Source of the DNA: Russula earlei | Taxonomy: Eukaryota; Basidiomycota; Agaricomycetes; Russulales; Russulaceae | Assembly: GCA_025769875.1 (NCBI GenBank) | Contig: JAGFNK010000043.1 | Location: 124,001 to 188,000 of the forward strand | Reading direction: 5' to 3' | DNA: 64,000 nucleotides | Shown: positions 40,699 to 61,874 of the stretch, piece after piece | How the letters are laid out: every line of letters begins with the position of its first letter | Position numbering within the stretch: the stretch's first letter is position 1 | Program-made: the position numbers and the translations under genes | Notes under the pieces: model-generated | The model's input: only the letters and a program-made list of their open reading frames with translations | Told to the model about the DNA's origin: nothing | The model's database searches: none

Positions 40699-40711
40699 CG
40701 CTAGGAGCAGT

Positions 40712-41544
40712 TGTCAAGACACATACTGCTGATCCGTGTGGACTCAGGAGCAGGTGGGCAAGGGTCGGAACAGATGGTACGCGGCGTAGGCGGCGTTGAA
40801 CAGGAGGACGAGCCAAATGACTAAGATATACCAGATGGGGACTGGTACGTGTAACTGGAGGCAGAGGCGAAGGTTAGAAGCCAGTGCAGCGAGGGGGCTT
40901 TAAACAAGGCGGTCGTAGAAGAGTACCTTGGGGACGAGAGGAGTCTTTAAACTGAGCGGTCGCAGGGGAGTACCCAGGAAGAGGAGAGTATCACAAATGG
41001 ACAGTCTGACGACTGCCATGCTTCATTGGGGCTTATATACAGTATACAGGGTCGATTACAAAGCACTGGGACTATTCTAGACTCTTTGGTACCATCCAAT
41101 AGGGACTACAGAGGCATAAACTTGCTTGTGTCAACTTTCAGGCTTACTGAGCGCATTACTGATCATTGTGGAGCGATGACATCATTATGATGTCACTGTG
41201 GAGCGCTTAGTGAGCCTATGAGGTCACTGTGGAGTCGCTCAGTCAGCCATGATGTCATTGGAGCCTTGATGACGTCAGATGATTTATGCAACAGTTTGCT
41301 AAGAGTTTGTGCCGCTGTTTCGGGTCCATGGTGGCTGAGTGGCCATGTGGCTTGCCACGCGATGATTACCCGATTAGGAAACTGGTGCCTGGTCGTGTTA
41401 TAGTGCCTTTGCAATAGCAATATCTTGTACCGCAGGGGGAATAGCCCAGAAAATGGAAGGGAGTTCGGCAATGCAAAGTGAGAGAGGTTCTTCTTGAGTA
41501 AAATAGGACAATCTTCGGCCAGGACTTGGCCTCGGTTCGTAACA
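40712..41544 (-). repeat. 3' LTR of gypsy copy A
   Basis: 833 bp, TG...CA ends, matches 46060-46888 and 57100-57927. The splice donor word near its end (minus strand) reads CAGCAGTATGT, against CAGCAGTACGT in the other copies. Confidence 0.92.
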
Positions 41545-41793
41545 TTCATCCCCTCTTTATAGACTTGTTGCTCCTGCAACAGTAGGGATTCGTTTCTTTG
41601 GAAGGTGGAGTAGTTTGCATATGAAAAGTCGAAGTCTGTTCGTTCGTGGGGAGTTCTCCCTTGTTCCTATGATTTGCTTTGGGGATGGCTGTGGTCGATT
41701 GGGTGCATGTGGTCTGCAGGAGTTCTCTGAAAAGTTCGTTGGTAACAAGGATAAAGGTAGTCATCGACAGAGGTCATGATGAGAGTTGTTGGT

Positions 41794-44142
41794 TTAGGGG
41801 TTACTCCTGGTGGGAATTGTTCTAAGCGCCTTCGGATATTTCCGATGGAAGTCTTTAACAAGTGATTGCGCTCTTGATAGGTTAGATGCTGGCTCCCAAG
41901 TATTTTCTGCAACCGTATACCCTTTCCATTTAACTAGGTATTGGATTCCTTTGCGGTTTGGGGAGAGCCGAGAGTTTAGGATCTGTTCTACTTCATATTG
42001 TTCTTCACCTTCGACTAATATTGGTGGCGGGTTTGAAAAGTTAGGACCATGGGCAATGGTTTCTTTGTAAGGTTTAATCAGGGAGTGGTGAAAAACTGGG
42101 TGTATCTTCCAAGACTTTGGTAGCTCGAGGCGAACGTTTACTGGATAGGCAGTGGTGACTTTGAATGGCCCATAGCGTCGAGGGGCTAGTTTTGCTTTTG
42201 GGTGAGTGGTTCGTAGATTCGTGGCTTCCAGCCATACTTGATCCCCTTCTTTAAAACGAAATGTGGAGGATTGAGGTCCTGATTGCTTCATGATTTCTGT
42301 TGCTCGGTTCAGGGAGGCAGCTACTTCTTCTCTGAGTTGGTTTAGTCTTGATAGTCTTTCTTGGATCGAAGGGAATTTTGATGTAAAGGCAAGGGGTGGA
42401 GCGAATGTTGGGTTAAAGCCATACCAGACTTCAAACGGGGGTTTGTTCGTAGCACTGTGTTGTCTGGCATTATGTGCGAACTCCATAAAGGGAACTAGTT
42501 CTGCCCAATTGTCTGCTTGATGATTGCAAAATATTCGTAGGTATTGTTCTAGTTCTTGGTTAACTCGTTCTGTTTCTCCATCTGTCTGTGGGTGATATGC
42601 TGTGCTTAATGATACTTTGACATTTAACTTCTTCCATAGTTCTTGAGTGACTTTTGCTGCGAATTGAGGGCCTCTGTCCGATATTATTTGTGTTGGGAGC
42701 CCTATTCTTCTCCAGACATTGTTCATGATTAGTGTCGCTGTTTCGTCTGCTGTGATTGTCTTGTGGCAAGGGGTAATGATTATTGCTTTACTGAATCGAT
42801 CTACCACGACTAGGAGGCTGTCAAAGCCTTGTGAAATTGGTAGGTCCGTGATAAAGTCCATGGTAATGCTTTTCCATACTTCTCCAGCTGGTGTAATCGG
42901 TACAAGGGGTGTTTCTGTCTTTGGACGGTTCTTTGTACTTTGGCAAATTGCGCAACCATCTACATAACTTTTGACATAGGTTAGCATTCCTGGCCACCAA
43001 TAGTTTCGGCTGATTAGTTCATAAGTCTTCCATTGGCCAGGATGCCCAGTGGCAAGGGAGTCGTGGTGTAGTTTTAGAATTTTCTTTCTTAGGGTGTCGT
43101 TGTTTGGGATATAGACTTTTCCTTTGAATAGTATTAGTCCATCTTCAAGGTTCCAGTCCTGTAAGCCTTTGGATAGTCGCCTTGGTCCATTCTTTATAAT
43201 GATTGCTAACGCGTTAGATACTTCTGGGTCGTAGTCTTTGCTAGATCGTAGTTGTTGTCGAAGTTCCTGGTCACCGATTGGTTCTGTAGCAGAGGTGCGT
43301 GTTGCTCTAATTTTAAAAAATTTGTCATCTAGGAGCACCTTTCCATCATTTTCGTTTTGTATCCCCTCTTTAAAGTCTGGCCGCCTGGACAGACCATCTG
43401 CTTTGTTCATAGTTCCTGGGTGATGGGTGATGGTGAAGTCAAAATTGCTGAGGAGGAGTGCCCATCGGGCTTGCCGTCTCGTGAGTTTCTGTTTTGTCAT
43501 GAAATATGTCAAGTTATTGTGGTCTGTCCATAGATCAATGGGGTGTGTAGCGCCTTCAAGGTAGTGTCGGAAGTGCCAGAGGGATAAAACAATAGCAAGG
43601 AGTTCTTTATCGTAGATCATGTAATTTCGTTGTGCGGGGTCCAAGGATTTCGAAAAATAGGCTACTGGGTGATATCTGTTAAATTCATCGGGTTGTTCCA
43701 AGATTGCACCGACTGCAAAGTCACTTATTTCCTTGGTGGGGTGCTTGTAAACTATAAAGTGTGTCAGTCGTTGATGCCAAGCTTGGGTACAATAATTCTT
43801 GAATTCAATTAACTCTCTCCTTGAACGCGTAGGTAAGTTCAATGCTAAGAAGGATTGTTCTGGTAGATAACAGTGTAAATCAGTATTCCTAAGATCGGCA
43901 CTATCAGAGGATTCAACAAGGGGTGATGCAAAGGGTTGGATAGGTATGACAGGGGTAGGAATACGATTGGTAAATAAGGGTACGTAGGCGTTAGGAGGGG
44001 TAGGAGGTAATGGTCTTTCGACAAGAAATCCTCTTGCGTTGGGAATTGTTTCTCTCTCAGGGGGTCGTTGGGATGACGCGCGTCTCCTGTGTCGAGGAGC
44101 CAGATTTATCGAATGGGGAGATGGTAATCGCCTGGCGTCCAC
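41794..44142 (-). CDS. gypsy copy A fused ORF: leader ORF3 + RNase H + integrase + chromodomain
   Basis: 782-codon frame created by deletion. Residues 1-145 or so equal leader ORF3 (no methionine); then it enters RNase H at DFAVGAILEQPDEFNRYHPV with DKELLAIVLSLWHFRHYLEG, a HHCC integrase zinc finger (HHDSLATGHPG with CAICQSTK), the integrase DDE core (TMDFITDLP, SDRGPQFAAK, YHPQTDGETERVNQ), and a C-terminal chromodomain (YLVKWKGYTVAENTWEP). No ATG occurs in the ORF3 part. The chromodomain, a histone-mark reader, places the element among chromoviruses. Confidence 0.85.
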   Translation of the reverse strand: MDARRLPSPHSINLAPRHRRRASSQRPPERETIPNARGFLVERPLPPTPPNAYVPLFTNRIPTPVIPIQPFASPLVESSDSADLRNTDLHCYLPEQSFLALNLPTRSRRELIEFKNYCTQAWHQRLTHFIVYKHPTKEISDFAVGAILEQPDEFNRYHPVAYFSKSLDPAQRNYMIYDKELLAIVLSLWHFRHYLEGATHPIDLWTDHNNLTYFMTKQKLTRRQARWALLLSNFDFTITHHPGTMNKADGLSRRPDFKEGIQNENDGKVLLDDKFFKIRATRTSATEPIGDQELRQQLRSSKDYDPEVSNALAIIIKNGPRRLSKGLQDWNLEDGLILFKGKVYIPNNDTLRKKILKLHHDSLATGHPGQWKTYELISRNYWWPGMLTYVKSYVDGCAICQSTKNRPKTETPLVPITPAGEVWKSITMDFITDLPISQGFDSLLVVVDRFSKAIIITPCHKTITADETATLIMNNVWRRIGLPTQIISDRGPQFAAKVTQELWKKLNVKVSLSTAYHPQTDGETERVNQELEQYLRIFCNHQADNWAELVPFMEFAHNARQHSATNKPPFEVWYGFNPTFAPPLAFTSKFPSIQERLSRLNQLREEVAASLNRATEIMKQSGPQSSTFRFKEGDQVWLEATNLRTTHPKAKLAPRRYGPFKVTTAYPVNVRLELPKSWKIHPVFHHSLIKPYKETIAHGPNFSNPPPILVEGEEQYEVEQILNSRLSPNRKGIQYLVKWKGYTVAENTWEPASNLSRAQSLVKDFHRKYPKALRTIPTRSNP

Positions 44143-45023
44143 AAGGTAATTCCGTCAGGAGTAGGGGGTGTGTCTGGTCGAAAGTTGCACGTGCAATACT
44201 CTGTTTTGCAGTTACACCTTGCCGTCCACGGATCTGACTCAGTATCTTCAGTGCTGGCAGACCAACGTTCTTGGCTAGTTGGGACAGTGGTCTGAATCGG
44301 TGTGAGGGGTCGAGGGGCGAGACTTGAGGCTTCTAGGATTGCTGGGACAGAATAGTATGCAGGGGGACCAGTATATGAGGCGTCTGGGCTGGTAATTGCC
44401 CAAGGTTGATTGTAGTCTGCGTCGTATAGCCAAGAGTTAGTTTCCCAGTCAAAGGTGTTGTGTATTCCTGGCACAACAGCAAGTTGGACGTAAGATTGAT
44501 TTTCCCTTTGTATTCTGTTGAGGCGTAGGTGGTAGAACTGGACGGTGAGACGGTAGTAGCTGATGTATGTCCAAGCCAGATAAAACAAGCGATACCCTGT
44601 CCTTAAAGAGTGGACAATGATGTGGTGGCGTGGTTGAATGATTCTGGTCCAAAGGTTTAATTCACTAGTGCGTAAGGACTGGTAGTCAACTGGCTGTCCT
44701 TGGATGTTCTTTGCTTGAGCAAGGTGCCAATATAGTAGTTGTTGTCGTGCTGGAGGTAGAAGTCGACTAAGGGTTTCAAGATATAGTGCGTGTTCGTCGT
44801 GGCTTAAGAGTTGTCCAAAAGGCAAGACTTCAAGGAACTCTTTAACAATAAGATGGGGGAAATCCTCGTGAGGTGGTTCAACTCCTGGTACGTCGTGTAA
44901 GTTGGTTAAAGTGGTGACAGGGAATGTGACGGAGGTCCAAGTTCGATAATGATTTAGGCTTAAGACGTGTCTGGTGATAGCGTCTTCTTCTTCGTCTTCT
45001 TCTAAGGCGTATTCTCGTGGCAC
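44106..45023 (-). CDS. gypsy copy A leader ORF2, AUG-less, unknown function
   Basis: Frame of 305 codons with no ATG anywhere; the first codon after the last stop region that looks like a start is a GTG. In frame with ORF1. Acidic start (PREYALEEDEEEDA), a helical middle rich in Leu/His/Tyr, and a C-terminal cysteine cluster (CNCKTEYCTC). I recognise no domain. A 64-nt GT-AG intron (45023-45086) ends exactly before the frame and would join A to TG, making an AUG. The same arrangement is in copy B (58967-59884), with mostly synonymous differences. Confidence 0.7.
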   Translation of the reverse strand: MPREYALEEDEEEDAITRHVLSLNHYRTWTSVTFPVTTLTNLHDVPGVEPPHEDFPHLIVKEFLEVLPFGQLLSHDEHALYLETLSRLLPPARQQLLYWHLAQAKNIQGQPVDYQSLRTSELNLWTRIIQPRHHIIVHSLRTGYRLFYLAWTYISYYRLTVQFYHLRLNRIQRENQSYVQLAVVPGIHNTFDWETNSWLYDADYNQPWAITSPDASYTGPPAYYSVPAILEASSLAPRPLTPIQTTVPTSQERWSASTEDTESDPWTARCNCKTEYCTCNFRPDTPPTPDGITLWTPGDYHLPIR

Positions 45024-45089
45024 TTTAGTTAAAACAAAAGGATCTTTATTCGATCTTTATTGAAGCGTTACAAGGGTGGTTCTTACTTT

Positions 45090-46013
45090 TTAAGAACCGT
45101 GCGCAAGATCTATGGTTTCGAGACGGTACCTCTCGATTATTTCGAGGGGGTTAGGGGGAATACGAGGCGTGAAGCAGAAGCGAAGTAGCTGGGGGTTGAA
45201 TCGTATGGTGTCGACTGTATAAGTCGAATAGTGACGTAGAGCTACGCGGTTACTGTTCTCCTCGAAATGTAAGTAACCGTAAGCAAAGGCGAGGCGTCCG
45301 TCCAAGAAGTCGTGTACAATGGATAAGCAAAATGAGCCCTCGTAAGCAGGGCGGTAAATAGCAGGCAAGGTAAGTAGTTTCCTAAACAAAGAAGTATTGA
45401 AGATGTATGCGATGCGTCCGAGGGGGAAGTCAGCGTCCGGGGCGTAGATCCCGACGTTGGAACAGATGCCGAAGGGGGTTAGATTGTACTGGGTGGCAAG
45501 GGCAGAGTTGGAGGGTTCGACCGCAAAAGTGTGGACGATGCGTGCACGAAAGGCAGTGGTGAAGGTGTCTGTGAAGGCGCGACGACTCAACTGATCTGAG
45601 GTAGGGATGCGCCCTAGATAATCTTGGTGGTTGAGGTCGTGGAGGGGACGCCACTGCTCACGGGATCGATTAGTAGTGGGAAGGACGAAGTACTGGTGAG
45701 GGTGGAATCGGAATGCTGTGCAAGGAGGGCGGTCGAGGAAGCCTTCAGGCAAGGGAGGACGGTCCGCTTGCTGTTGCTCGTTCTGCGCGGGGGGGGGAGT
45801 GCCAACAGGAACAAAGTCGCCTGGGATAGGCTGGGCAGTGGTAGGAGACGATGGGGGAGCCGTTGGGGAGTACAAGAGGCTGAGGGGTGAGGATGTGTCG
45901 ATCGGGTCGACGTCTTCAGTGAGGATGCGAAGGGCGGTGCGTGGAGTGGGCTGGAGAGGAGAAGGGAGACGCAGGGAGGTATTGACAAGAGTGGGGGAGT
46001 TGGGAGTAGACAC
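45090..46013 (-). CDS. gypsy copy A leader ORF1, AUG-less, unknown function
   Basis: 307 codons, no ATG in any position. Pro/Ser-rich first 90 residues, then a folded-looking region with aromatic residues (FRFHPHQYFVLPTT, NLTPFGICSNVGIYAPDADF, YGYLHFEENSN). No known domain recognised. A 62-nt intron (46013-46074, donor A|GTACGT in the 5' LTR, acceptor AAG|TG) would create AUG in the context AGCAUGU. Compared with copy B, one 100-codon stretch differs at about 25 synonymous and 4 amino-acid-changing codons, so the frame has been under protein selection. Confidence 0.72.
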   Translation of the reverse strand: MSTPNSPTLVNTSLRLPSPLQPTPRTALRILTEDVDPIDTSSPLSLLYSPTAPPSSPTTAQPIPGDFVPVGTPPPAQNEQQQADRPPLPEGFLDRPPCTAFRFHPHQYFVLPTTNRSREQWRPLHDLNHQDYLGRIPTSDQLSRRAFTDTFTTAFRARIVHTFAVEPSNSALATQYNLTPFGICSNVGIYAPDADFPLGRIAYIFNTSLFRKLLTLPAIYRPAYEGSFCLSIVHDFLDGRLAFAYGYLHFEENSNRVALRHYSTYTVDTIRFNPQLLRFCFTPRIPPNPLEIIERYRLETIDLAHGS

Positions 46014-46059
46014 TTGAGCGTTGGCTGGTCAATACAAGAATGATGAGAGACTGTCCAGA

Positions 46060-46888
46060 TGTCAAGACACGTACTGCTGATCCGTGTGGACTCAGGAGCA
46101 GGTGGGCAAGGGTCGGAACAGATGGTACGCGGCGTAGGCGGCGTTGAACAGGAGGACGAGCCAAATGACTAAGATATACCAGATGGGGACTGGTACGTGT
46201 AACTGGAGGCAGAGGCGAAGGTTAGAAGCCAGTGCAGCGAGGGGGCTTTAAACAAGGCGGTCGTAGAAGAGTACCTTGGGGACGAGAGGAGTCTTTAAAC
46301 TGAGCGGTCGCAGGGGAGTACCCAGGAAGAGGAGAGTATCACAAATGGACAGTCTGACGACTGCCATGCTTCATTGGGGCTTATATACAGTATACAGGGT
46401 CGATTACAAAGCACTGGGACTATTCTAGACTCTTTGGTACCATCCAATAGGGCTACAGGGGCATAAACTTGCTTGTGTCAACTTTCAGGCTTACTGAGCG
46501 CATTACTGATCATTGTGGAGCGATGACATCATTATGATGTCACTGTGGAGCGCTTAGTGAGCCTATGAGGTCACTGTGGAGTCGCTCAGTCAGCCATGAT
46601 GTCATTGGAGCCTTGATGACGTCAGATGATTTATGCAACAGTTTGTGAGAGTTTGTGCCGCTGTTTTGGGTCCATGGTGGCTGAGTGGCCATGTGGCTGC
46701 CACGCGATGATTACCCGATTAGGAAGCTGGTGCCTGGTCGTGTTATAGTGCCTTTGCAATAGCAATATCTTGTACCGCAGGGGGAATAGCCCAGAAAATG
46801 GAAGGGAGTTGGCAATGCAAAGTGAGAGAGGTTCTTCTTGAGTAAAATAGGACAATCTTCGGCCAGGACTTGGCCTCGGTTCGTAACA
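46060..46888 (-). repeat. 5' LTR of gypsy copy A
   Basis: 829 bp. On the minus strand it holds TATATAAG, then AGACTGTCCA (46355-46346) as likely RNA start, and the donor CAGCAGTACGT near its end. The primer site TGGACAGTCT (46057-46048) follows immediately. Confidence 0.92.
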
Positions 46889-57099: not shown

Positions 57100-57927
57100 T
57101 GTTACGAACCAAGGCCAAGTCCTGGCCGAAGATTGTCCTATTTTACTCAAGAAGAACCTCCCTCACTTTGCATTGCCGACTCCCTTCCATTTTCTGGGCT
57201 ATCCCCCCTGCGGTACAAGATATTGCTATTGCAAAGGCACTATAACACGACCAGGCACCAGTTTCCTAATCGGGTAATCATCGCGTGGCAGCCACATGGC
57301 CACTCAGCCACCATGGACCCGAAACAGCAGCACAAACTCTTAGAAACTGTTGCATAAATCATCTGACGTCATCAAGGCTCCAATGACATCATGGCTGACT
57401 GAGCGACTCCACAGTGACCTCATAGGCTCACTAAGCGCTCCACAGTGACATCATAATGATGTCATCGCTCCACAATGATCAGTAATGCGCTCAGTAAGCC
57501 TGAAAGTTGACACAAGCAAGTTTATGCCTCTGTAGTCCTATTGGATGGTACCAAAGAGTCTAGAATAGTCCCAGTGCTTTGTAATCGACCCTGTATACTG
57601 TATATAAGCCCCAATGAAGCATGGCAGTCGTCAGACTGTCCATTTGTGATACTCTCATCCTCCTGGGTACTCCCCTGCGACTGCTCAGTTTAAAGTCCAC
57701 TCTCGTCTTCAAGGTACTCTTCAACGACCGCCTTGTTTAAAGCCCCTTGCTACACTGGCCACTAGCCTTCGCCTTTGTCTCTTGCAACACCTACCAGTCC
57801 CTATCTGGTACCTCCTCGTCGTTTGGCTCGTCCTCTTGTTCAACGCCGCCTTCGCCGCGTACCATCTGTTCCAACCCTTGCCCACCTGCTCCTGAGTCCT
57901 TAGTGATCAGCAGTACGTGTCTTGACA
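57100..57927 (+). repeat. 5' LTR of gypsy copy B
   Basis: 828 bp, TGTTACGAACC to TGTCTTGACA. Holds the promoter (57601-57608) and a splice donor at 57912/57913. Confidence 0.93.
57601..57642 (+). promoter_or_regulatory. LTR promoter: TATA box and likely RNA start
   Basis: TATATAAG at 57601-57608. About 25-30 bp downstream is AGACTGTCCA (57633-57642), the complement of the primer site at 57930-57939, so transcription probably starts at about 57631-57633. ATGs at 57614 and 57621 fall just upstream of that start. Confidence 0.7.
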
Positions 57928-57974
57928 TCTGGACAGTCTCTCATCATTCTTGTATTGACCAGCCAACACTCAAG
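57913..57974 (+). other. Predicted leader intron 1 (creates AUG of ORF1, removes primer site)
   Basis: 62 nt, donor A|GTACGT, a branch-like TTGAC about 20 nt before the acceptor CTCAAG|TG. Joining 57912 (A) to 57975-57976 (TG) yields ATG with A at -3. It contains the LTR end and the primer site 57930-57939. The same intron with the same length is present in copy A (46013-46074). Confidence 0.6.
57930..57939 (+). other. Self-primer binding site
   Basis: TGGACAGTCT, two bases after the LTR, is a perfect 10-nt complement to AGACTGTCCA at the predicted RNA 5' end. This is the arrangement of Tf1-type retrotransposons, which prime from a fold-back of their own RNA instead of a tRNA. Conserved in copy A (46057-46048, minus). 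Confidence 0.65.
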
Positions 57975-58897
57975 TGTCTACTCCCAACTCCCCCACTCTT
58001 GTCAATACCTCCCTGCGTCTCCCTTCTCCTCTCCAGCCCACTCCATGCACCGCCCTTCGCATCCTCACTGAAGACGCCGACCCGGTCGACACATCCTCAC
58101 CCCTCAGCCTCTTGTACTCCCCAACGGCTCCCCCATCGTCTCCTACCACTGTCCAGCCTATCCCAGACAACTTTGTCCCTGTCGGCACTCCCCCTCCAGC
58201 GCAGAACGAGCAACAGCAAGCGGACCGTCCTCCCTTACCTGAAGGCTTCCTCGACCGTCCCCCCTGCACAGTATTTCGCTTCCATCCGCACCAGTACTTC
58301 GTCCTCCCTACCACCAATCGTCGCCAGGAGCAGTGGCGTCCCCTCCACGACTTGAATCATCAAGACTACCTTGGACGCATCCCTACCTCAGACCAGTTAG
58401 CTCGTCGCGCATTCACAGACACCTTAACTACCGCCTTTCGTGCACGCATCGTCCACACTTTTGCGGTAGAACCCTCCAACACTGCCCTTTCCACCCAGTA
58501 CAATCTCACCCCCTTCGGCATCTGCTCCAACATCGGGATATACGCCCCGGACGCTGACTTTCCCCTCGGACGCATCGCATACATTTTTAACACCTCGTTA
58601 TTTAGGAAACTACTTACCTTGCCTGCTATTTACCGCCCTGCTTACGAGGGCTCGTTTTGCTTATCTATCGTACACGACTTCTTGGACGGACGTCTCGCTT
58701 TTGCATACGGCTACTTACACTTCGAGGAAAACAGTAACCGTGTGTCCCTACGTCACTATTCGACTTATACAGTCGACACCATCCGCTTTAACCCCCAGCT
58801 ACTTCGCTTTTGCTTTATGCCTCGTATTCCCCTTAACCCTCTTGAAATAATTGAGAGGTACCAACTCGAAACCATAGATCTTGCGCACAGTTCTTAA
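57975..58897 (+). CDS. gypsy copy B leader ORF1, unknown function
   Basis: Open from 57974 for 307 codons; apparent first codon GTG, so no ATG unless spliced (intron 57913-57974). Only one Met codon (58817), which is ACG in copy A. Pro/Ser-rich N-part, then a conserved region with many aromatic residues and RPAYEGSFCLSIVHDFLDGR. No domain recognised. Pattern of change against copy A is mainly synonymous, indicating a real protein. Ends TAA at 58895-58897, three bases before the donor of intron 2. Confidence 0.72.
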
Positions 58898-58900
58898 AAA

Positions 58901-58967
58901 GTAAGAACCACCCTTGTAACGCTTCAATAAAGATCGAATAAAGATCCTTTTCTTGTTTTAACTAAAG
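58901..58967 (+). other. Predicted leader intron 2 (creates AUG of ORF2)
   Basis: 67 nt, donor A|GTAAGA directly after the ORF1 stop, branch-like TTTAAC, acceptor CTAAAG|TG. Joining 58900 (A) to 58968-58969 (TG) yields ATG with A at -3. Using the LTR donor at 57912 with this acceptor gives the same AUG and skips ORF1. Contains two AATAAA words. Conserved in copy A (45023-45086). Confidence 0.6.
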
Positions 58968-59884
58968 TGCCAAGAGAATACGCCTTGGAAGAAGACAAAG
59001 AAGAAGACGCTATCACTCGACACGTCTTAAACCTAAATCATTATCGAACTTGGACCTCCGTCGCATTCCCTGTCACCACTTTAACCAACTTACACGACGT
59101 ACCAGGAGTTGAACCACCTCACGAAGATTTTCCCCATCTTATTGTTAAAGAGTTCCTTGAAGTCTTGCCTTTTGGACAACTCTTAAGCCACGACGAACAC
59201 GCACTATACCTTGAAACCCTTAGTCGACTTCTACCACCAGCACGACAACAACTATTATATTGGCACCTTGCTCAAGCAAAGAACATCCAAGGACAGCCAG
59301 TTGACTACCAATCCTTACGCACTAGTGAATTAAACCTTTGGACCAGGGTCATTCAACCACATCACCACATCATTGTCCACTCTTTAAGGACAGGGTATCG
59401 CCTGTTTTATCTGGGTTGGACATACATCAGCTACTACCGTCTCACTGTTCAGTTCTACCATCTACGCCTCAACAGAATACAAAGGGAAAATCAATCTTAC
59501 GTCCAACTTGCTGTTGTACCTGGAATACACAACACCTTTGATTGGGAGACTAACTCTTGGCTATACGACGCAGACTACAATCAACCTTGGGCAATTACCA
59601 GCCCAGACGCCTCATATACTGGTCCTCCTGTGTATTATTCGGTCCCAGCAATCCTAGAAGCCTCAAGTCTTGCCCCTCGACCCCTCACACCGATTCAGAC
59701 CACTGTCCCAACTAGCCAAGAACGTTGGTCTGCTAGCACAGAGAATACTGAATCAAATCCGTGGACAGCAAGGTGTAACTGCAAAACAGAGTATTGCACG
59801 TGCAACTTTCGACCAGACACACCTCCTACTCCTGACGGAATTACCTTGTGGACGCCAGGTGATTACCACCTCCCCATTCGATAA
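58968..59884 (+). CDS. gypsy copy B leader ORF2, unknown function
   Basis: 305-codon frame, apparent first codon GTG, no ATG within. Same features as in copy A: acidic start, helical middle, C-terminal CNCKTEYCTC cluster. Nine or so residue differences from copy A. Function unknown; the cysteine cluster could bind metal. Confidence 0.7.
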
Positions 59885-60348
59885 ATCTGGCCCCTCGACA
59901 CAGAAGACGCGCATCGTCCCAACGACCCCCTGAGAGAGAAACAATCCCCAACGCAAGAGGATTCCTTGTCGAAAGACCATTACCTCCTACCCCTCCTGAC
60001 GCCTACGTACCCTTGTTTACCAACCGTATTCCTACCCCTGTTATACCTACCCAACCCTTTGCATCACCCCTTGTTGAATCCCCTGATAGTGCTGATCTTA
60101 GGAGTACTGATTTACACTGTTACCTACCGGAGCAATCCTTCCTAGCATTAAACCTACCTACGCGTTCAAGGAGAGAGTTAATTGAATTCAAGAACTATTG
60201 CACCCTAGCTTGGCATCAACGACTGACACACTTTATAGTTTACAAACACCCCACCAAGGAAATAAGTGACTTTGCCATCTCTCCAGCAGAATTCGAAGGA
60301 TATCTGTGGAAGACCCGAGTAGGTTCTAACACAAAGCAGCATTACTGA
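59867..60348 (+). CDS. gypsy copy B leader ORF3, unknown function
   Basis: Open in another frame than ORF2, overlapping its end; no ATG (a TTG is the first start-like codon). Contains RPLPPTPPDAYVPLFTNR and LHCYLPEQSFLALNLPTRSR. A 56-nt GT-AG interval (59848-59903) would join ORF2 to ORF3 in frame; a ribosomal frameshift is the alternative. In copy A this frame is fused to RNase H by a deletion. Confidence 0.5.
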
Positions 60349-60473
60349 AGAATACTCCCGAATCCAATTAAGAAAACATCAAGGAAGACCTGATACCATT
60401 CGACTAAAGCCAGCCTACACCATTGCATATCCTTGGAACAACGGCCATTGGACTATAACAGTCGTCTAGATCT

Positions 60474-61874
60474 ATGAGCACTAGGAGGGACATCACTGAC
60501 GAAGAAGAAAATCTAATCCCACTCCTATTTGAAAACCTCAGTTACGACACCCAAGATCACTGTTACCGAGGAAAATTTGCAGGCACACCTATTATCAACC
60601 ACGGAAATCTTTCTGACACTTGGTTATACGAAGACGATAACGACGAAGTTACCACCGAACAACTTAAAGCGGCAGCCCCAGGAGCAGAAAACGTTCAAGA
60701 CTTCAACCCCTATAACTACACAGGCCTCTTCCTAGACAGACCAGTCAAGTGGAGCCGTTCTAGAAGACATTGGGTTTACTATAACAATCGAGAAGTCGAT
60801 TTCTCAGCCAGAACACCTCAAGAAGTTACCGCTATCCTAGGAACTGCTCAGAGCACTCGAAGCACCACTCCAGGACCTTCTACTCGGCGTAATACCCAAC
60901 AACCTACTCCTCATACAACTAGCAACGTACCACAAGCAGTCCCTCGAACGCTCACTCCAACTAGAATCCAACTACAAGGTTCAGCCCCACCTATTGTTAC
61001 AGCTACAACAACTCAGAATCCCACCATGTCAAGCAATCCACGCCTTGTCGGAACAGCACCAGAACCCTTTGACGGAAAGGCTGATAACGCAGAAGCCTTT
61101 TGGGCAGCTTTGGCCAATTATTACTACATCAATGGCGACTCCTTTACAGATGAAAGCAAGAAAGTTGCCGCTGCACTGACCCACTTTAAAGTAGGAACAC
61201 CCGCCTGGAGCGTGGGCTAGAGAACAAACCACCAAGGCTATGGCTCGTACTGTAGCAGACTATGGGTCATGGGACGACTTCAAGAAAGCCTTTGCCGATC
61301 ATTTTATTCCTGCAGAAGCAGAGTTGGCCTCCGCTAATACCATGCACACCTATTATCAAGGGAAACTACCATTTAATGAATGGTATCCAGAAATGGTCGC
61401 ACCACGCATCACGAGCTACCACCGATGAAAGAACAAAGATGTACGCATTTAGGAAGAACATCAACCCGGCCTTACATCAGAAAATACTGGGAATCACACC
61501 AACACCAACTACAGCTTGCAGCCCTTGTCAAAGCAGCAAGAGAATTCGACAACCTTTTCCACCTATACAACTCCACTGCTTTTCGAGGAGGACGCTCTGT
61601 GCGTGCCCGAGGATTGAACACTCAAGGATCAGATAATCCATTGGAAATTAACTTGTACCAAGGAGAGCCCAATGAACGACCCTGGGAATCCAGAAGTGAA
61701 AGGAAACCCCTCACAGATGCAGAGAAAGAATTTCGACGCAAGAACAATCTCTGTTATTATTGTGGAAAGAAGAATCATATGGCAAATCAATGTAGAGCAA
61801 AGAAAGCAGCTCAAGGACGCCAACGACAAGGATTCTCGCCCCCAAACAGTCAGAGCTACAACCATCCAAGATGA
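60474..61874 (+). pseudogene. gypsy copy B gag with zinc knuckle
   Basis: The ATG at 60474 is the first ATG after the predicted RNA start shared by both copies' leaders. Gag N-part (60474-61220), capsid-like part with PEPFDGKADNAEAFWAALAN, then ADHFIPAEAELASANTMH, and the knuckle CYYCGKKNHMANQC (about 61753-61794). Three frame changes (near 61220, 61400 and 61500) show this copy is no longer intact. Confidence 0.85.

Follow-up and report, generated by a model that had tools for sequence, protein, structure and literature searches.

The window analysed here, a stretch of 64,000 nucleotides (nt) of Russula earlei DNA (contig JAGFNK010000043.1, positions 124,001 to 188,000), includes the 5' part of a high-copy Ty3/gypsy chromodomain long terminal repeat (LTR) retrotransposon. 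The leader of this element contains three open reading frames (ORFs) upstream of gag, and small introns that split the start codons of the first two, ORF1 and ORF2, very probably act as the switch for their expression. The features of the window copy are as follows (a slash in a splice site marks the exon-intron boundary).

57100 to 57927, plus strand: 5' LTR of 828 nt (TG...CA), delimited from the LTR pair of copy A, a further copy in the window
57633 to 57642, plus strand: AGACTGTCCA, putative RNA 5' end and self-primer, lying ~30 nt past the TATA box; the RNA start is an inferred one
57634 to 60473, plus strand: leader purged of AUG, 2.84 kb; ATG at 58045 and 58817 in the window copy, none in copy A
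57913 to 57974, plus strand: intron 1, 62 nt; donor A57912/GTACGT within the LTR, acceptor CTCAAG57974/TG
57930 to 57939, plus strand: primer-binding site (PBS) TGGACAGTCT, inside intron 1
57975 to 58897, plus strand: ORF1, 307 amino acids including the split Met, stop TAA; genomic sequence without an ATG start
58890 to 58908, plus strand: hairpin GTTCTTA-AAAAG-TAAGAAC, spanning the ORF1 stop and donor 2
58901 to 58967, plus strand: intron 2, 67 nt; donor A58900/GTAAGA, acceptor CTAAAG58967/TG; missing from five genomic copies
58968 to 59884, plus strand: ORF2, 305 amino acids including the split Met; all forward frames free of ATG
59863 to 60468, plus strand: ORF3, Met-free; extra G at 60322 in the window copy
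60474 to 61220, plus strand: start of gag, whose AUG is the first in unspliced RNA if the copy is AUG-free; gag frame broken in the window copy

The initial annotation had placed the donors and acceptors at these positions, with introns of 62 and 67 nt, and the sequence agrees exactly. As it had also stated, an AUG with A at -3 is formed when 57912 is joined to 57975 and 58900 to 58968, and likewise when the LTR donor is joined to the ORF2 acceptor (57912 to 58968). The same sites are present in copy A, for which the corresponding features are given below.

40708 to 41544 and 46056 to 46888: LTR pair of copy A
46013 to 46074, minus strand: intron 1 of copy A, 62 nt
45090 to 46012, minus strand: ORF1 of copy A
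45023 to 45086, minus strand: intron 2 of copy A, 64 nt
44106 to 45022, minus strand: ORF2 of copy A

The donor pattern A/GT[AG]NG occurs three times in the leader and AG/TG six times. Only two of the AG/TG sites open more than 75 codons, those at 57975 (306 codons) and 58968 (304 codons), and each pairs with an A/GT[AG]NG donor 62–67 nt upstream. AG/TG at 60090 was considered as a further acceptor and rejected, as just 24 of 30 copies retain it and it opens 17 codons. To the initial annotation the present analysis adds the AUG-purged leader, the location of the PBS within intron 1, spliced cDNA copies, a second family and the hairpin at donor 2.

Searches covered 66.6 Mb of genome in 1,374 contigs. 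The DNA search gave at least 40 scored copies of the leader among 481 candidates and the ORF1 protein search at least 129 scored matches among 874 candidates, both being lower bounds. A close set of 43 other copies (copy A included), 91–98% identical, was aligned to the window; three of these copies have no intron 2, and copies without data for a site were omitted from its count. In the close set, A and GT of donor 1 and AG and TG at acceptor 1 were found in 42 of 42 copies. At donor 2, GT was present in 38/38 and A in 39/40, and at acceptor 2 AG was present in 36/36 and TG in 38/38. A diverged set of 18 copies, picked for low ORF1 identity and 84–88% identical in DNA, has acceptor 1 intact in all 18 and acceptor 2 in all 17 with data, and retains donor 1 and donor 2 in 17/18 each, the former being lost in L068 and the latter in L067. 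Only two of fourteen splice and AUG positions are ever altered in the diverged set, once each; for comparison, variation in the same set is 21% in most of intron 2 (58922–58965) and 26.5% at third codon positions of ORF1.

The arrangement recurs in a second family, represented by locus L084 (C19), with amino-acid identity of 39.6% to ORF1 and 36.9% to ORF2. L084 includes the complement of the self-primer, a donor A/GTGAGT near the LTR end, and the PBS within intron 1, which is 59 nt long and ends with AAG/TGTCT at ORF1. The ORF1 stop TGA is followed by AA/GTAAGA, a 53-nt intron 2 and CAG/TGCC at ORF2. The first ~20 nt of this intron 2 are like those of family 1 and the remainder is different. 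Read frame by frame and unmended, the L084 ORF1 is interrupted by stops, and many ATGs are present, consistent with a decayed copy. A further 15 short loci were taken from the ORF2 search, two of which (L099 and L100) belong to family 1. AG/TG is kept in 14 of the 15, with ORF2 open to the fragment end, and donor and hairpin are kept in 12; L090 and L098 have no donor, and nothing recognisable was found in L091. L085, examined as a possible further family, proved to be a decayed family-1 copy. A search for relatives in viral contigs gave three pattern matches, none of which was confirmed. Overall, the splice sites are conserved, with few exceptions, in about 60 copies and in the second family.

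Direct genomic evidence that intron 2 is really spliced comes from five copies in two families, in which the GT...AG interval is missing: C95, C465, C839 and C1152 (family 1) and C337 (family 2). C95:129036 and C465:40094 were located by a junction-pattern search, and the family-2 copy is at C337:29015; the contig of C95 is 136 kb long, and the sequence retrieved includes 745 bases upstream of the LTR of this copy. The search that located C337 gave ten matches, five of which (C1, C110, C298, C523 and C1309) were unrelated on reading. The intron-2-less copies read ...TAAAAATG or TAAAATG at the junction, which is TTCTTAAAAATGCC in C95, C465 and C337 and TTCTTAAAATGCC, one A shorter, in C839 and C1152. 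Such copies are rare, five as compared with 236 matches of the acceptor pattern of unspliced family-1 copies, or 353 matches of the donor-hairpin pattern, in the genome. The four from family 1 occupy at least three positions among unspliced copies of the ORF1 tree, one for C465, one for C1152 and one for the pair C95/C839. C95 and C839 differ by 1.0% and each is closer to the unspliced copy L007 (0.4–0.5%); hence, the pair may represent either one or two events.

Ordinary deletion, rather than copying of spliced RNA, might be suggested by the short AAAG repeats that flank the interval, and by C839 and C1152 ending one A short of the window's exon, a variant also present at the donor of five unspliced copies. 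However, repeat-mediated loss keeps one AAAG, giving ...AAAGTGCC, whereas the copies read AAAAATGCC or AAAATGCC. The junction is without the G that a slipped-repeat (microhomology) deletion would retain, and this type of deletion was therefore rejected. Moreover, the window junction cannot slide by one base, and the same event recurs in several parts of the tree as well as in family 2. Deletion is thus an extremely improbable origin for these copies. Conservation of the sites together with the intron-2-less copies also ruled out chance splice-like motifs.

The PBS at 57930–57939, which intron 1 spans, is a perfect 10-nt reverse complement of 57633–57642, and the same is true in family 2. Complementarity of the PBS to the inferred RNA 5' end indicates self-priming, and priming by tRNA was set aside once the 10-nt self-complement was seen. 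According to passages of PMC4600332, self-priming has been demonstrated for Tf1 and proposed for Tj1. As intron 1 spans the PBS, RNA spliced at intron 1 should not retrotranspose by the usual course of reverse transcription, and hence no intron-1-less copy is expected. A genome search allowing up to three mismatches revealed neither a family-1 junction lacking intron 1 nor the LTR-to-ORF2 junction (57912 to 58968). The latter junction, put forward in the initial annotation as an alternative use of the LTR donor, would make an AUG. The wider proposal made there, that splicing switches on ORF1 and ORF2, is supported by the five intron-less copies in the case of intron 2 and by conservation in the case of intron 1.

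If only intron 2 were real, with intron 1 a chance resemblance and ORF1 started in another way, the lack of an intron-1-less copy and the concentration of all direct evidence on intron 2 would be accounted for. However, every close copy with data has donor 1, acceptor 1 and the split AUG intact, and acceptor 1 and donor 1 are preserved in 18/18 and 17/18 of the diverged copies. Both sites are also present in the second family, where the donor is GTGAGT, and ORF1 has no other AUG start and an omega value of about 0.27. Such a restriction to intron 2 is therefore unlikely. The case for intron 1 rests on its conservation and on the need of ORF1 for a start.

This need follows from the coding constraint on the leader. 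Crude, non-phylogenetic counts against the window copy gave, besides the value for ORF1, omega of 0.11 per difference or 0.28 per unique change for ORF2, and 0.11 or 0.26 for ORF3, which indicates that ORF1–3 are under purifying selection. Given that selection and the lack of a usable ATG, a start must be supplied to ORF1 and ORF2. It could be provided in unspliced RNA by the genomic GUG or another near-cognate codon, the splice sites being incidental. The genomic codon is indeed GTG at both starts (the acceptor G plus TG), and the pararetrovirus rice tungro bacilliform virus (RTBV) uses a non-AUG start according to parts of PMC5902531. However, initiation of this kind leaves unexplained the conserved donors 62–67 nt upstream, the intron-2-less copies and the hairpin at donor 2, and as the sole source of the starts it is improbable.

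Relatives of ORF2 were collected by an alignment search, which gave 56 proteins with 23–34% identity; four models longer than 345 amino acids were dropped and 52 kept. The relatives are mostly records labelled jgi or ena, apparently metagenomic, with some Russula and Lactarius models. The 52 proteins show 10 Met beyond the initial position in 14,843 residues; 42 of them have none. Among the jgi-labelled relatives, 19 of 20 begin with V, 17 of these with VS; one of them, P0020, starts further inside the protein. The initial V in the jgi entries is taken as a GTG start, as AG/TG would give. N-termini of the non-JGI relatives were left out of the start-codon evidence, since an M may be entered by gene callers whatever the actual start codon.

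Between the inferred RNA start at 57634 and the gag AUG at 60474, two ATGs occur in the 2,840 nt of the window copy, and the 2,555 nt tested in copy A contain none. Dinucleotide shuffles (500) gave 24.5 ± 3.9 expected ATGs with a minimum of 14 for the window, and 20.3 ± 3.8 with a minimum of 11 for copy A. The gag-pol region of the same element, used as a control, showed no depletion (49 ATGs vs 50 expected). In ORF2 there are no out-of-frame ATGs vs 7.9 expected, and none of 5,000 synonymous permutations, with amino acids and codon usage held, was as low; the deficit is marginal in ORF3 (0 vs 2.3; 4%) and in ORF1 of copy A (0 vs 2.8; 3%). Among the 26 copies whose aligned leader spans 2,750 nt or more, 15 have no ATG in it; the ATG counts of spliced copies (e.g. 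L033) include their own junction ATG.

A functionless scarcity of AUG, due to base composition or codon bias, might be inferred from the C-rich and G-poor leader, in which other words also deviate from the shuffles (TAG is low, 18 vs 30, and TTG high, 63 vs 37). However, the shuffles never fell below the minima given above, gag-pol is undepleted, the words CTG, GTG, TTG and ACG are not depleted in the leader, and out-of-frame ATG in ORF2 is below the synonymous permutations. Composition is thus a very improbable explanation.

The gag ATG context was found at 190 places with up to three mismatches; among the matches listed the ATG is kept throughout, and all except the last are exact. The next ATG, at 61026, is in frame and in good context, and a shorter second Gag might arise by leaky scanning.

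The sites and their conservation, the intron-2-less copies, the purging of AUG and the purifying selection are read directly from the DNA, and fit a scheme in which intron removal switches on ORF1 and ORF2. Unspliced RNA, with the PBS kept, would serve both as the genome and as the Gag mRNA; as the 2.84-kb leader is nearly AUG-free, the first AUG met by a scanning ribosome would be that of gag. Removal of intron 1 would join ...CAGCA to UG..., giving the ORF1 AUG, and delete the PBS, so that the resulting RNA could act only as mRNA. Removal of intron 2 would join ...UAAAAA to UG..., placing the ORF2 AUG 1–2 nt past the ORF1 stop. This AUG would be the first if intron 1 is retained and, if both introns are spliced, would be reached from ORF1 by stop and restart. 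The spacing is TAA-AA-ATG or TAA-A-ATG in the spliced copies, and L084 would give TGA-A-ATG, as judged by position only. If intron 2 alone is removed, the PBS remains in the RNA, and this would account for the existence of rare intron-2-less copies; these may stay rare because they gain an AUG upstream of gag.

Apart from the hairpin at donor 2, the leader contains no perfect 7-bp stem with a loop of 3–6 nt. In the diverged copies this hairpin is the least variable 20-nt window of 57930–58960, with 0.6% mismatch vs 21% in most of intron 2; its family-2 version includes a G-T pair and has a longer outer stem. As the donor lies at the loop, the hairpin could limit splicing of intron 2 and plausibly keeps it low. 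Intron 2 of the window copy also contains two AATAAA hexamers (58926–58942), absent from the family-2 locus L084, which could form an intronic poly(A) site ending the ORF1 mRNA.

Several observations weigh against this scheme. Intron 1 has no spliced genomic copy, and the same result is expected if the event never occurs. Non-AUG initiation at the genomic GUG may be an additional route. The gag-pol frames are broken in the window copy, the gag AUG is in a weak context (U at -3), and scanning across 2.8 kb is a step that we infer. The leader of the window copy has two ATGs, and the other 11 of the 26 leaders carry 1–7, which we read as decay; out-of-frame ATG in ORF1 of the window is not significantly low (1 vs 2.1). 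Among the aligned copies, frames are intact in 30/41 for ORF1, 11/31 for ORF2 and 11/26 for ORF3. ORF3 is conserved and yet has neither an AUG nor a fitting AG/TG acceptor, and thus lies outside the splice model. It overlaps the end of ORF2 in the -1 frame, and a frameshift, restart or an unseen intron is possible.

The content of the element is that of a Tf1/sushi-like self-priming chromovirus, as defined by the self-complementary PBS and the reverse transcriptase, RNase H, integrase and chromodomain. Pfam gave RVT_1 (1.9e-35) in the window copy and RT_RNaseH (4.9e-30), rve (1e-14), SH3_Tf2-1 (1.3e-15) and a C-terminal Chromo (5.2e-17) in copy A. The TATA box is at 57601, inside the 5' LTR. 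Taken together, the data make it fairly likely that the element represents a widespread lineage of fungal retrotransposons. In this lineage, a leader with ~2 kb of coding sequence would be purged of AUG in every frame, the leader proteins would in consequence be almost Met-free, and ORF1 and ORF2 would be turned on only after removal of small introns, the first removal deleting the PBS and so committing the RNA to translation instead of replication.

The following comparisons refer to passages of the papers cited. As in the self-priming fungal Ty3/gypsy elements of the Tf1/Tj1 type (PMC4600332), the PBS is complementary to the RNA 5' end. Unlike Tf1 and Tj1, the element described here has a 2.84-kb AUG-purged leader with three ORFs, a PBS in an intron and start codons split by introns; the passages on Tj1 indicate coding sequences for Gag, protease, reverse transcriptase and integrase only. 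In RTBV and badnaviruses (PMC5902531), long upstream ORFs are internally AUG-free, so that ribosomes reach the downstream ORF. This feature is shared by ORF2, which has no internal AUG, and by the leader, with 0–2 ATGs in the window's copies. RTBV also uses splicing, for P4; however, the upstream ORFs of these viruses have weak starts of their own in the genomic RNA, with splicing used for a distal ORF, whereas here the upstream ORFs have no AUG until splicing assembles one.

Retroviral subgenomic mRNAs and the env of Drosophila gypsy (PMC4276936) resemble the scheme proposed here in that spliced RNA yields the accessory product and unspliced RNA gag and pol. The present element differs in having its accessory ORFs upstream of gag and introns of only 49–67 nt, with the AUG itself built at the junction. 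In BARE1 (PMC3735527), a short alternative intron likewise gives rise to a separate mRNA isoform of an LTR retrotransposon, but that intron, of 104 nt, makes a stop codon for Gag-only output, whereas the present introns would make start codons. Copia, Ogre, CRR and Bagy2 are named in the same source as well. CERV of Cer1 (PMC10309623), a lineage-specific nuclear regulator needed for export of unspliced RNA, is produced from a spliced mRNA. The comparison with ORF1 and ORF2 concerns the mode of expression; unlike these ORFs, CERV shares exons of gag. The relevant portions of PMC7264820 and PMC2864245 contained no parallel. A full-text literature search, based on titles and openings of abstracts and covering few subscription papers, gave no description of splicing-assembled start codons in a retrotransposon.

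Retroelements have long posed the question of how one RNA can serve as genome and as messenger. If the proposed scheme is true, a single splice event creates a start codon and deletes the primer site, which would be a clean molecular switch open to testing, and the spliced cDNA copies provide evidence of splicing within the genome itself. The near-Met-free ORF2 family gives a simple handle for finding such elements in fungal genomes and metagenomes.

The predicted structure of ORF2 has 169 of 304 residues with a predicted local distance difference test (pLDDT) score of 90 or higher, and most of residues 20–200 are above 90. No clear match of the predicted fold was found in PDB or BFVD, and this absence is no proof of a new fold. 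The C-terminus of ORF2 includes a conserved CxCxxExCxC...RPDTPPTP motif. Structure prediction for ORF1 was uninformative (mean pLDDT 31), and no signal was found for ORF1 and ORF2 being related to each other. The protein relatives of ORF1 at E ≤ 0.01 are two Russula earlei gene models, 83% and 63% identical to it where aligned. Gene model P0001 of R. earlei, tried as a guide to the ORF1 start, reads in frame through the acceptor of intron 1 and is uninformative. A regulatory or accessory role of ORF1 and ORF2, for instance in the export of unspliced RNA, is a guess and a rather doubtful one.

Copy A (40708–46888) is flanked at both ends by the 5-bp sequence GCAGT and sits, by eye, within a Ty1/copia-like ORF. 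It has a large internal deletion, by which ORF3 is fused to RNase H.

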